Source: Desulfobacterales bacterium
GTDB lineage: Bacteria > Desulfobacterota > Desulfobacteria > Desulfobacterales > Desulfosalsimonadaceae
Length of the DNA stretch: 64,000 nt
Assembly (NCBI GenBank): GCA_018335195.1
Contig: JAGXKN010000004.1
Coordinates: forward strand, 62,001 to 126,000
Direction of reading: 5' to 3'
Shown here: in pieces, positions 30,986-63,882 of the stretch
Numbering within the stretch: position 1 is the stretch's first letter
Layout: every line of letters starts with the position of its first letter
Translations under genes and position numbers: made by a program
Notes under the pieces: generated by a model
The model's database searches: none
What the model was told of the DNA's origin: nothing
What the model saw: the letters and a program-made list of their open reading frames with translations, nothing else

Positions 30986-31060
<75 letters not shown>

Positions 31061-31089
31061 TTTTTATTTTTGGGCCTTTTATTTTTTGA

Positions 31090-31164
31090 GGCGGCATAGC
31101 CAAGTGGTAAGGCAGAGGCCTGCAAAGCCTTTATTCCCCGGTTCGAATCCGGGTGCCGCCTCCA
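31090..31164 (+). tRNA. tRNA-Cys (GCA)
   Basis: 75 bases with encoded CCA. Acceptor GGCGGCA pairs with TGCCGCC; anticodon loop CCTGCAAAG gives GCA; T-loop GTTCGAATC. 29 bases after tRNA-Gly, probably one transcript. Confidence 0.97.
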
Positions 31165-60104: not shown

Positions 60105-60746
60105 ATGTTTATCACACTCGAAGGCATTGAAGGATCCGGCAAGTCAACCCAGATCCCCCATATCGTGGCCTATCTTGAGCAGCGCGGGCACACCTGTCTG
60201 GTCACCAAAGAGCCCGGGGGAACCGCCATTGGCGAACATATCCGCTCCATCCTGCTGGATCCGGGGAACTCCGGGCTCGATGCAATGGCCGAACTGTTCC
60301 TGTATGAGGCTGACCGGGCCCAACACGTCAGCCGGGTCATCGCCCCGGCCCTGGAGACGGGCAAAACCGTTATCTGCGATCGGTTCAGCGATTCCACTGT
60401 GGTTTACCAGGGCGCGGCCAGGGGGATTGAAGCCGGGCTCATCAAAAGGCTAAACGGCATTGTCCAGGGTGCCCACCGGCCGGATGTGACATTTTTGCTT
60501 GATCTCCCGCCCGAAATCGGGCTATCCCGGGCATGGCACCAGATCGAATCCGGCCTGCGGCAAAGGCGGGAAACCCGGTTTGAAAGAGAAAAAATCCGGT
60601 TTCATGAAAAGGTCAGGTGGGGATACCTTGAGCTGGCCGAAGACGAGCCCGACCGTTTCCGGATAATTGATGCCGGGGCACCGCCGGACGAGGTCTGCTC
60701 GGCCATCACAGAAGAACTGAAACGCCGGTTATACCCGGCGGAATAA
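60105..60746 (+). CDS. tmk: Thymidylate kinase
   Basis: 213 residues. P-loop EGIEGSGKSTQ, DRFSDSTVVYQGAARG, and a LID-type RRETRFE. Makes dTDP from dTMP. 14 bases ahead of the cysteine synthase-CysRS fusion. Confidence 0.93.
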   Translation: MFITLEGIEGSGKSTQIPHIVAYLEQRGHTCLVTKEPGGTAIGEHIRSILLDPGNSGLDAMAELFLYEADRAQHVSRVIAPALETGKTVICDRFSDSTVVYQGAARGIEAGLIKRLNGIVQGAHRPDVTFLLDLPPEIGLSRAWHQIESGLRQRRETRFEREKIRFHEKVRWGYLELAEDEPDRFRIIDAGAPPDEVCSAITEELKRRLYPAE

Positions 60747-60760
60747 GAGTTACGGATATC

Positions 60761-63064
60761 ATGACACGTTTTTCCATACTGGATGCCATCGGAAACACGC
60801 CGCTTGTGGAAATCCGGCGCCTAAATCCGAACCCGGACGTCCGTATTCTGGCCAAGCTTGAATACGTCAACCCGGGCGGCTCGGTAAAAGACCGTCCGGC
60901 CCTTTCCATGATCGAGGCAGGCGAGCGATCCGGCGAACTGACCCCGGATAAGACGGTGCTCGAAGCTACCAGCGGCAATACCGGTATCGGCCTGGCTATG
61001 ATCTGCGCGGTCAAGGGATATCGGCTGCTTCTGGCCATGTCGGATGCCGTTTCCATGGAACGGCGCAAGATTCTGGCCGCCCGGGGCGCCGAGATCCTTC
61101 TTACGCCCGGCCATCTGGGCACCGATGGCGCCATCGAGGAAGTATACCGCCTGGTCCGGGAAGATCCGGATCGCTATTTCATGACGGATCAGTACAACAA
61201 CCCGGCCAACCTGGAGGCGCATTACAGCGGCACAGCAGCGGAGATCCTGCGGCAGACCGGGGGTGATATAAGTCGGTTCGTGGCCACCATGGGCACCACG
61301 GGTACGGTCATGGGATGTGCCCGGCGGTTTCGCGAATACGACGAAAAAATTGAGATTATCGGGGTGGAGCCGTATCTCGGCCACAAGCTCCAGGGACTTA
61401 AAAACCTCAAGGAGGCCTACCGGCCCGAGATTTTTGAGAAGCGGTGGCTGGACAGGAAGGTCAACATCGACGACGAGGAGGCCTTTGAGATGACCCGGCG
61501 ACTGGGCCGGGAGGAAGGTCTTTTTGTGGGCATGAGCAGCGGGGCGGCAATGGTGATCGCCGCGCAGGAAGCCCGGCAGATGTCTTCGGGTACCATCGTT
61601 GTCCTGTTTTCCGACAGCGGGGAGCGCTATTTGAGCACTCCGGTGTTTGCAGTGAAGAAAAAGGCCGAGATTTACCTGTTTAATACCCTGACGCGGTCCA
61701 AGGCGCCCTTTGACCCCATCCGAAGCGGGCGGGTGTCGATGTATACCTGCGGGCCCACTGCGAACAAGCGGATTCACCTGGGGGAATGCCGCCGGTTCGT
61801 ATTTTCCGATCTGATGTATCGTTATCTGACATACCGGGACCTTCAGGTCACCCATGTCATGAACATTACCGACCTGGATGACAACACCATCCAGGGTTCC
61901 GAGGCCGCGGGACAGACCCTTGCCGAATTTACGCAGTATTATATCGACCTGTTCAGGGCCGATCTGGCGGCATTGAATATTGTGCCGGCTGAAATTTATC
62001 CCCGGGCCAGCGAGAATGTCGGCGAAATGGTGGGACTGGCGAAAAAGCTGCATGAAAAGGGCTTTGCCTATGAGAAGCTTCGCTCGCTTTATTTCAGCAT
62101 CAGTGCATTTCCGGAATACGGGCGGCTTTCCGGCATTGATCTGGACAAGATCAAGCTGGGCGCCACCGTGGATCTCGACGAGTACGAAAAAAACAACCCC
62201 CGGGATTTCACACTGCTCAAACGCGCCCGGCTCTCAGAGCTCAAACGCGGCATATACGTCAAAACCCAGTGGGGCAATGTGCGGCCTTCCTGGCACATCC
62301 AGTGTGCGGCCATGTCCATGAAGCACCTGGGTGAAACCTATGACATTCATACCAGCACCCGGGAGCTGGTTTTTCCGCACCATGAAAACGAGCTGGCCAT
62401 GGCCCGGGCGCTGACCGGCAAGCCGCTGGCTCGCTACTGGGTGCACTGCGAGCAGGTGCTGGTCGAGGAGGCAGACGAAAACCAGCAAAAAAACGGCCTG
62501 CAAACACTCGGGGATTTGACCGCACTCGGATACACCGCCCGCACGGTCCGGTTCTGGCTGGTTACCGCGCATTACCGCAAACCGCTGCAGTATGCGCAAA
62601 AACGTTTGGATCAGGCCCAACGGGCCATCCGGCGGATTGACGAATGCGTGCAGTCCCTTCAAGATCTTGCAGACACGGGTCGGGGAAATGCTTCTTACGA
62701 GGAAATCGACCAGCTGGCATATGATATCCGGCATGGATTGATCACTGCCATGGACGACGATTTGAATATGCCGCGGGCCATGTCCGCGGTTTTCCGGAAG
62801 ATACGGCAGATCAACGCGCTATTGTCAGAACATCGTTTGGGTGCCGGGGATGCGCGGAAAATCCTGGATACGTTCGCCGATATCGACCGTGTTCTGGGAA
62901 TTTTTGACTTTACCCGGGAATCCTACAGCCCGGAAATCGAGGCGCTGATCGAAGAGCGCAGGCAAGCCCGGCGCCGCAAGGATTTTGCAAAAGCCGACCA
63001 AATCCGCGAGCAGTTGATACAGGCGGGAATTGAAATCAAAGACGAGAAAATCGATAAATCATGA
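60761..63064 (+). CDS. Cysteine synthase-cysteinyl-tRNA-synthetase fusion with degenerate CysRS motifs
   Basis: 767 residues. Residues 1-300 are a PLP cysteine synthase/CBS-family fold: GNTPLVEI, PLP lysine 43 in NPGGSVKDRP, TSGNTG at 70-75, ATMGTTGTVMG, FSDSGERYLST. Residues 305-765 align end to end with CysRS: Zn Cys in MYTCGPT (330), NITDLDD, SWHIQCAAMSMKHLGE, FPHHENELAMA, and the C-terminal EALIEERRQARRRKDFAKAD. The HIGH motif reads HLGE (339-342), the GGG before FPHH reads TST, and the KMSKS loop is replaced by DENQQKNG (572-579). Adenylation of cysteine on tRNA is therefore doubtful. No frameshift is present, so it is not a simple pseudogene. Confidence 0.9.
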   Translation: MTRFSILDAIGNTPLVEIRRLNPNPDVRILAKLEYVNPGGSVKDRPALSMIEAGERSGELTPDKTVLEATSGNTGIGLAMICAVKGYRLLLAMSDAVSMERRKILAARGAEILLTPGHLGTDGAIEEVYRLVREDPDRYFMTDQYNNPANLEAHYSGTAAEILRQTGGDISRFVATMGTTGTVMGCARRFREYDEKIEIIGVEPYLGHKLQGLKNLKEAYRPEIFEKRWLDRKVNIDDEEAFEMTRRLGREEGLFVGMSSGAAMVIAAQEARQMSSGTIVVLFSDSGERYLSTPVFAVKKKAEIYLFNTLTRSKAPFDPIRSGRVSMYTCGPTANKRIHLGECRRFVFSDLMYRYLTYRDLQVTHVMNITDLDDNTIQGSEAAGQTLAEFTQYYIDLFRADLAALNIVPAEIYPRASENVGEMVGLAKKLHEKGFAYEKLRSLYFSISAFPEYGRLSGIDLDKIKLGATVDLDEYEKNNPRDFTLLKRARLSELKRGIYVKTQWGNVRPSWHIQCAAMSMKHLGETYDIHTSTRELVFPHHENELAMARALTGKPLARYWVHCEQVLVEEADENQQKNGLQTLGDLTALGYTARTVRFWLVTAHYRKPLQYAQKRLDQAQRAIRRIDECVQSLQDLADTGRGNASYEEIDQLAYDIRHGLITAMDDDLNMPRAMSAVFRKIRQINALLSEHRLGAGDARKILDTFADIDRVLGIFDFTRESYSPEIEALIEERRQARRRKDFAKADQIREQLIQAGIEIKDEKIDKS

Positions 63065-63882
63065 GTCAATTCACAGCTGCATTGTTTCCTTTTACATTTT
63101 TTTCCGAAGAGCTGGCACACGCCAGCCATGCCCGCTTCGGAGCCATCGTTGTATATCAGCCGGCCGCCGGCCAGACACCAGCGGCAATGGAAAGACTGGC
63201 GGCAGACGGCAGAATTGTCCTCAGATTCCCCGTCCGGGGAGATGAGCGGCGGCTGGTGGAGCTTGCAGGCAATTACCGGGACTGGGGCGAGGTTTATCAG
63301 AAGGATGCGGCCGCTTTGAAGAAAATCTCGGATACCGGGTTTTTTCACAAGGAGTTTGCCCCGGAAATCAGCACGGAAATCCGCAGGGGCACAAAGCCCG
63401 AAGCGCGGGCACCGGACCCGGTTTTTCAGGCCAGGTTGTTTTTGTTTTTGGCCCAGGAGTATGACCGGCAGACCGCCGAGCTTCAAAGCGAACTCGCAGC
63501 CACGGACCGGGCAGAACAGGAAATGTTTTTCCGGATCCGGGGCGGTCCCGAGCAATCGGATCGTTTTTCCGGAGGCAATACGGGTGCGTCAAAAAATCCG
63601 GTGAAGGATCCGGGCGCCTACATGACCGAATCCCGCCTGTGGGCATGGCATACCCTGATGGCTGCCGATTCCGATCCGCCGCGGTTTTTTGTTACGTCCA
63701 GCCAGGCTGTCATCGAAGCCGTGGCCGAGGAAGATGAAACCCTGAGGAAAATGGACGATCCGCCCGAAGCGTTGCAGATTATGTCGTGCAAGGCCGGCGG
63801 GCCTGATGACGGCTATAAAGCGGATTTCTACGAATCCGGCAACCGGGACCGGATCATCGCGCTTTTGCACCGAATCGGGTAG
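63061..63882 (+). CDS. Conserved protein of unknown function
   Basis: 273 residues, coupled to the fusion gene by an ATGA overlap. No signal peptide or membrane segment. The first 60 residues alternate hydrophobic strands and loops (FTAALFPFTFFSEELAHASH, FGAIVVYQP); the middle is charged helix (RLFLFLAQEYDRQTAELQSE); the C-terminal third has WAWHTLMAAD and RFFVTSSQAVIEAV. I do not recognise a family. The coupling suggests a role with the cysteine synthase-CysRS protein. Confidence 0.7.
   Translation: MSQFTAALFPFTFFSEELAHASHARFGAIVVYQPAAGQTPAAMERLAADGRIVLRFPVRGDERRLVELAGNYRDWGEVYQKDAAALKKISDTGFFHKEFAPEISTEIRRGTKPEARAPDPVFQARLFLFLAQEYDRQTAELQSELAATDRAEQEMFFRIRGGPEQSDRFSGGNTGASKNPVKDPGAYMTESRLWAWHTLMAADSDPPRFFVTSSQAVIEAVAEEDETLRKMDDPPEALQIMSCKAGGPDDGYKADFYESGNRDRIIALLHRIG

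Follow-up and report, generated by a model that had tools for sequence, protein, structure and literature searches.

The window analysed here, a stretch of 64,000 nucleotides from a Desulfobacterales bacterium (GenBank assembly GCA_018335195.1, contig JAGXKN010000004.1, positions 62,001 to 126,000 of the forward strand), carries a gene in which a CysM-type cysteine synthase is joined to a region resembling cysteinyl-tRNA synthetase (CysRS) (Table 1). The gene is one uninterrupted reading frame of 767 codons, running from an ATG start to a TGA stop, and the intact fused frame described in the initial annotation was borne out by matches to Pfam and NCBIfam models in the synthase half as well as in the CysRS half. 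The Pfam matches were to PALP (residues 6-285, 8e-70), tRNA-synt_1e (317-620, 2e-77) and, C-terminally, DALR_2 and CysS_C; the CysRS-like region (residues 304-763) is of full length and comprises the catalytic core, a DALR domain and CysS_C. The protein scored 350.8 bits with the NCBIfam model cysS (cut-off 340) and 348.9 bits with cysKM (TIGR01136, cut-off 344.15). Since it exceeds the cut-offs for cysteine synthase and for cysteine--tRNA ligase alike, the fusion can be misread as the CysRS of the cell, and the present finding would correct such annotations.

Table 1. Features of the fusion gene and its immediate neighbours (window coordinates; "order" refers to fusions from the order of the window, "others" to fusions from outside it)
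Feature	Coordinates	Strand	Details
Thymidylate kinase gene, directly upstream	60105..60746	+	position -1 is taken by a tmk-like gene in 97 loci, nearly all of them from the order
CysM-CysRS-like fusion gene	60761..63064	+	767 aa; open frame; each half matched in Pfam and NCBIfam; orthologues of full length in most of 60 relatives
CysM-type cysteine synthase domain	60761..61651	+	residues 1-297; PF00291; PLP lysine K43 in NPGGSVKDRP; QGLKN (K214)
Short inter-domain linker	61652..61669	+	residues 298-303; AlphaFold2 pLDDT <50 at 298-301
CysRS-like catalytic-core domain	61670..62620	+	residues 304-620; PF01406 at 317-620; Zn ligands C330, C515, H540, E544 kept
HLGE replacing HIGH	61775..61786	+	residues 339-342; E. 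coli H40 retained in just 3% (order) / 11% (others) of fusions
HTSTREL replacing HGGGSDL	62348..62368	+	residues 530-536, before FPHHENE; E. coli G225, G226 kept in <=13% of fusions
DENQQ replacing KMSKS	62474..62488	+	residues 572-576 = E. coli 266-270; K269 kept in 2% (order) / 4% (others); loop disordered in model
C-terminal anticodon-binding-type domain	62921..63061	+	residues 721-767; PF23493 CysS_C; R733, R737, F742, D746, R749, D761
273-aa uncharacterised ORF	63061..63882	+	ATG overlaps fusion stop codon (ATGA); position +1 in 102 loci, nearly all of them from the order

The thymidylate kinase gene is not thought to be part of the function of the fusion, and the 273-residue ORF had no match in Pfam or NCBIfam. 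Clustering of the neighbouring genes showed that conservation of the neighbours (these two and a YhaM-like gene) does not extend beyond the order, outside which the gene neighbours gave no support for a function. Elsewhere in the window, genes for tRNA-Gly(GCC) and tRNA-Cys(GCA) lie side by side (30986-31164, + strand).

In the AlphaFold2 model of the fusion, built with 77 aligned sequences, each domain was well defined (mean pLDDT 89.9), while the loop at the KMSKS site (residues 571-577) was disordered (pLDDT <50). Since the mutual arrangement of the domains was uncertain (pTM 0.62), the model does not show how the CysRS part would reach the CysM active site. The CysRS half matched 8qhp (Z 49.5), 1u0b, which includes tRNACys (Z 48.9 over 303-765), E. 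coli CysRS with cysteine, 1li7 (Z 48.3), and MshC, 3c8z (Z 44.4). The CysM half matched the CysM structures of E. coli (2bht) and M. tuberculosis (3dki), with a Z of 42.9.

The altered HIGH, HGGG and KMSKS motifs pointed out in the initial annotation are present as described, and the loss of these class I catalytic signatures proved to be family-wide. It was followed in an alignment of 151 fusions, 97 from the order and 54 from outside it, together with 52 canonical CysRS (E. coli numbering). Amongst the adenylation residues, G225 is kept in 0% of order and 2% of other fusions and G226 in 3% and 13%, with K269 and H40 at the similarly low frequencies listed in Table 1, whereas all four are at >=95% in the canonical enzymes. 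W184, W194, Q241 and R168 are also lost nearly everywhere, in and beyond the order. The degenerate motifs recur in 88 related fusions of the order, amongst which the letters at the KMSKS site differ. A sequencing error or lone oddity was therefore rejected, the pattern being common to these 88 members and to the 151 overall, and chance does not explain the motif changes either. The decay has proceeded at uneven speed, and a few deep members are near-canonical (L130, L145). The possibility that these are still active was considered, but they were not counted in favour of charging, since even they (for example L130, HLGN...KMSRSLGN) are without the second KMSKS lysine, and most have TSG in place of GGG. 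Since that lysine, the two HGGG glycines and the last HIGH histidine are nearly always lost, the CysRS-like domain should not adenylate cysteine, and since they are missing in nearly every member, they have probably been gone since the last common ancestor of the fusion family.

These losses bear on the suggestion that the CysRS part activates cysteine, either as a ligase like MshC of mycothiol synthesis or to make the persulfide Cys-SSH. While the fold does match that of MshC, and a sulfide-rich metabolism would make persulfides plausible, the ATP-handling residues are lost throughout the family and the window protein scored 186 bits with the MshC model TIGR03447, far below its cut-off of 485.1, so that MshC-like ligation is unsupported. 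In CARS-type persulfide synthase the PLP-binding lysines of the KIIK and KMSK motifs have been shown to be needed (PMC5660078). Since the window protein has N375 and Q378 at the former positions and D572 and Q575 at the latter, persulfide synthesis is unsupported for it as well, and we regard both activities as extremely improbable. The initial annotation had offered a cysteine or tRNA sensor beside the cysteine conjugate or persulfide, and it is the sensor that fits best, since the ATP residues are lost while residues of the cysteine pocket and of anticodon recognition are kept.

The retention of the Zn-binding cysteines was confirmed: C330 and C515 are present in the window protein, as are H540 and E544, the four corresponding to E. 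coli C28, C209, H234 and E238. In order and other fusions respectively, C28 is kept in 99% and 78%, C209 in 96% and 85%, H234 in 100% and 100%, and E238 in 88% and 50%. T68, D69, W205, H206 and F232-N237 are also kept across the fusions, and the pocket-motif residues T31, T68, W205, H224 and H234 stand at 98-100% in the order. Such a pocket could serve a sensor of cysteine only, in which bound free cysteine inhibits CysM and replaces the feedback otherwise mediated by CysE, tRNA being uninvolved; the frequent occurrence of the fusion as the only synthase of a genome lacking CysE would agree with this. However, a Zn-binding cysteine is missing in 16 of the 151 fusions, the glutamate at 238 is present in only half of those outside the order, and a pure cysteine sensor would need none of the anticodon residues, whose conservation is the highest in the C-terminal domain, in members without a Zn cysteine as well. 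We therefore consider this reading unlikely. Several lineages have an incomplete Zn site, so that the sensing of cysteine cannot be a feature of all fusions.

The C-terminal domain is the most variable and fastest-evolving part of the fusions, with the majority residue reaching a median of only 48% per column. It nevertheless holds the most distinct signal of the alignment: R733, R737, D746, R749 and D761 (E. coli R423, R427, D436, R439 and D451) are 99-100% conserved in the 151 fusions, and position 742 (E. coli W432) is always W, F or Y. All 16 fusions without a Zn cysteine still carry the five conserved residues. In the E. coli CysRS-tRNACys complex, R427 and D436 hydrogen-bond G34, W432 stacks on G34 and R423 takes part in a water network (PMC12684709). 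The conserved C-terminal residues could instead be structural, which would count against the reading of tRNA. A terminal D-T-x-x-G-x-x-W is found in 38 of the 54 non-order fusions and in none of the 97 order members, the window protein included; since the order is without this tail, tRNA binding may be weaker in the window protein.

It might also be supposed that the CysRS-like half is a drifting relic which binds no ligand and merely stabilises or oligomerises the synthase. The catalytic motifs do vary freely (the first histidine of HIGH is present in 61 of the 88 order fusions and the KMSKS loop is unconserved), the CysRS half of the window fusion is only 34-50% identical to non-order members as against 54-68% for the CysM half, and genomes without the fusion manage with a free CysM. 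Simple drift, however, does not accord with the patterned conservation observed, in which the anticodon residues, the Zn ligands and the WH and FPHHEN motifs persist while the ATP residues go, or with the presence of a full-length CysRS-like domain in all 151 aligned fusions. The dN/dS over the CysRS part is also low, at about 0.07-0.16 (NG86, against relatives of the window protein; dS is saturated in several pairs), indicating purifying selection. A relic is thus improbable.

The second canonical cysS gene that the initial annotation proposed to look for was found, as were further fusions with changes at the same motifs. The genome of the window (G000, 99.7% complete) encodes a separate canonical CysRS of 492 residues with HIGH, HGGG and KMSKS (G000:C31:18569), so that the fusion is not needed for tRNACys charging there. 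Amongst 53 further fusion genomes, 52 have a second CysRS gene, in one case as a fragment only (G082); the lone exception (G064) is only 79% complete. The idea that the fusion is the sole cellular CysRS is therefore rejected for the window genome and for these 52, and the fusion is a dedicated paralogue.

Two further kinds of CysRS-like gene were observed. The window genome has a third CysRS-like gene (G000:C61:164416-165312; locus L260:6345-7598, also L003) encoding 417 residues, with HIGN and KMSKSRGN kept, no anticodon-binding domain and altered Zn-ligand positions (QDAAM, YRHHDYN). It adjoins two radical SAM/SPASM-like genes, a cupin gene and a DUF169-like gene (named by eye), a similar gene occurs in G425 (L258), and it is possibly an MshC-like ligase or a CysRS*-like enzyme. 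A second CysRS lineage with HLGN/HIGN, HSGG/HCGG and KMAKSAGN was seen at L259 (G079:C1), alongside the canonical CysRS, and at L257 (G163:C11), in its place.

The kept tRNA-reading residues, together with a second CysRS in nearly every genome, might also suggest that the synthase is tethered to tRNACys so that its product arises beside the canonical CysRS, or that CysM acts on a tRNA-bound precursor in the manner of SepCysS. Such tRNA-dependent cysteine synthesis is known elsewhere (PMC5424206). The fusion, however, has no enzyme able to load the precursor, and there is no sign of contact to the CysM active site. SepCysS, moreover, has a PLP fold different from that of CysM, and we hold either form of tRNA-anchored synthesis to be highly improbable.

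In 395 genomes drawn evenly across the phylum, the fusion was found in 156, down to 43% identity. The threshold used was 1e-130, and since the free-standing CysM of the phylum reach at best 2.8e-107, it counts fusions. A scan of named genomes gave 80 retained loci with the fusion at full length, under titles of Desulfobacteraceae, Desulfobacterales or deltaproteobacteria, Desulfonema magnum and Desulfosarcina cetonica being amongst the carriers; in the plasmid collection, no place covered 80% of the fusion protein. The CysRS halves cluster together, apart from the canonical CysRS (SH-aLRT 99). The CysM halves also form one group, with modest support (77) in a tree that joins long branches with the M. 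tuberculosis CysM sequence. Both trees are most simply explained by one ancient fusion event. In phylum members that lack the fusion, CysM is encoded as a free-standing protein with a GLKN/GLKH motif and 46-58% identity to its fused counterpart (L216-L220, L229, L233-L235, L240, L243-L245), and these proteins are natural comparisons for the contribution of the CysRS half.

The synthase half has the PLP fold, the Schiff-base lysine and the above-cut-off TIGR01136 score of the CysK/CysM enzymes, and K43 and K214 of the GLKN motif are invariant in the fusion alignment (A1). CysE was undetected in 76 of the 156 fusion genomes, and 72 of these 76 encode no CysK/M other than the fusion; a second CysK is present in 77 of the 80 genomes that have CysE. 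The presence of CysE thus tracks that of a second CysK (Fisher p ~2e-35 over the 156 fusion genomes, relatedness uncorrected). Since it is the sole CysK/M in 72 genomes without CysE, the fusion is probably their principal cysteine synthase. The genome of the window belongs to the CysE-bearing kind, its CysE adjoining a CysK with a GIGAGF motif. This CysE-linked CysK is presumably the O-acetylserine enzyme, whereas the fusion operates in the absence of CysE in roughly half of its hosts. One genome of the same order (G387, 97% complete) has a canonical CysRS, with CysK/M, CysE and the fusion all undetected; it is possible that this organism is a cysteine auxotroph or has a further cysteine route.

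The substrate of the fusion is perhaps O-phosphoserine. In M. tuberculosis CysM the use of O-phosphoserine is linked to Arg220, and Lys214 of the fusion presumably sits where that enzyme has Arg220 (ALRN), which serves only as a lead. The SerC family TIGR01364 was found in only 10 of 24 genomes, that of the window among them. Instead of an O-phosphoserine route, the genomes without CysE may have an unrelated serine acetyltransferase.

Since the ATP residues are lost while the cysteine pocket is mostly kept and the anticodon residues are kept, the CysRS half is best explained as a tRNACys-reading regulatory or binding domain. We propose, with moderate confidence, that the fusion is a working CysM-type synthase joined to a former CysRS that no longer adenylates and would bind tRNACys and, in most lineages, cysteine. 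The CysM half would make cysteine, often as the only synthase of the cell and possibly from O-phosphoserine, while the permanently attached CysRS half would have a regulatory role by binding ligands. In it, tRNACys would be read by the C-terminal domain through the residues that contact G34, and in most lineages the Zn pocket would hold the cysteine side chain. By these means the CysRS half may sense uncharged versus cysteinylated tRNACys (or tRNA together with free cysteine) and adjust the synthase fused to it, with either activation by uncharged tRNA or inhibition by cysteine or Cys-tRNA as the effect. A wider form of this proposal, in which a dead CysRS throughout the phylum would read both the anticodon of tRNACys and the attached cysteine, so setting synthesis by charging state in the manner of GCN2 and replacing CysE feedback, is one we offer only tentatively and regard as doubtful. 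If the proposal is true, it would explain how dozens of genomes of the phylum without CysE make, and may control, cysteine, and would tie cysteine production to the need for protein synthesis in a phylum of mostly sulfate-reducing-type bacteria.

Compared with canonical CysRS (E. coli CysS, EC 6.1.1.16), the fusion shares the whole fold with its C-terminal domain, the Zn ligands and R423, R427 and D436. It differs in being without HIGH, HGGG and KMSKS, in being joined to CysM, in occurring beside a separate CysRS gene and in forming its own tree clade. MshC is likewise derived from CysRS and has the same fold, but is an ATP-dependent ligase without tRNA, whereas the fusion has lost the ATP residues and kept the tRNA-reading domain. 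The O-phosphoserine-dependent CysM of M. tuberculosis shares the CysM fold with 40% identity; it is free-standing and has the thiocarboxylate of CysO as donor. The CysRS* of Desulfobacterales, which lacks the anticodon-binding domain, charges a tRNASec-like tRNA and is linked to selC*/selB* (PMC9437257). Like the fusion it is an additional CysRS-like protein of Desulfobacterales, but the fusion has the anticodon-binding domain (CysS_C), and no selC*/selB* was seen beside it in the flanking genes or the tRNA scan.

The fusion joins another enzyme to a synthetase paralogue that lacks adenylation residues, and for this arrangement HisZ and GCN2 are the nearest models. HisZ, a HisRS paralogue without adenylation activity, regulates HisG in histidine synthesis (PMC9437257). 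The likeness is by mechanism and not by domain descent: in both cases a pseudo-synthetase is attached to the pathway that makes its cognate amino acid. HisZ is a class II separate subunit, whereas the fusion is class I, fused and apparently tRNA-reading. In the kinase GCN2 a HisRS-like domain senses uncharged tRNA. It has in common with the fusion an enzyme that carries a synthetase domain devoid of catalysis, which in the fusion may likewise sense tRNA, again with no relation by domain descent. GCN2 is, however, a eukaryotic kinase, and the fusion a bacterial biosynthetic enzyme with a class I domain, for which tRNA binding is only predicted. We found no description of a CysM-CysRS fusion among the CysRS and cysteine papers and reviews within reach (which excluded most subscription papers), and the one review consulted on synthetase paralogues in amino-acid synthesis lists none of CysRS origin joined to a cysteine synthase. 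If true, the proposal would add a class I, tRNA-reading pseudo-synthetase inside a biosynthetic enzyme. The recruitment of synthetase paralogues to amino-acid synthesis is already known; what would be new is a CysRS paralogue built into cysteine synthase.
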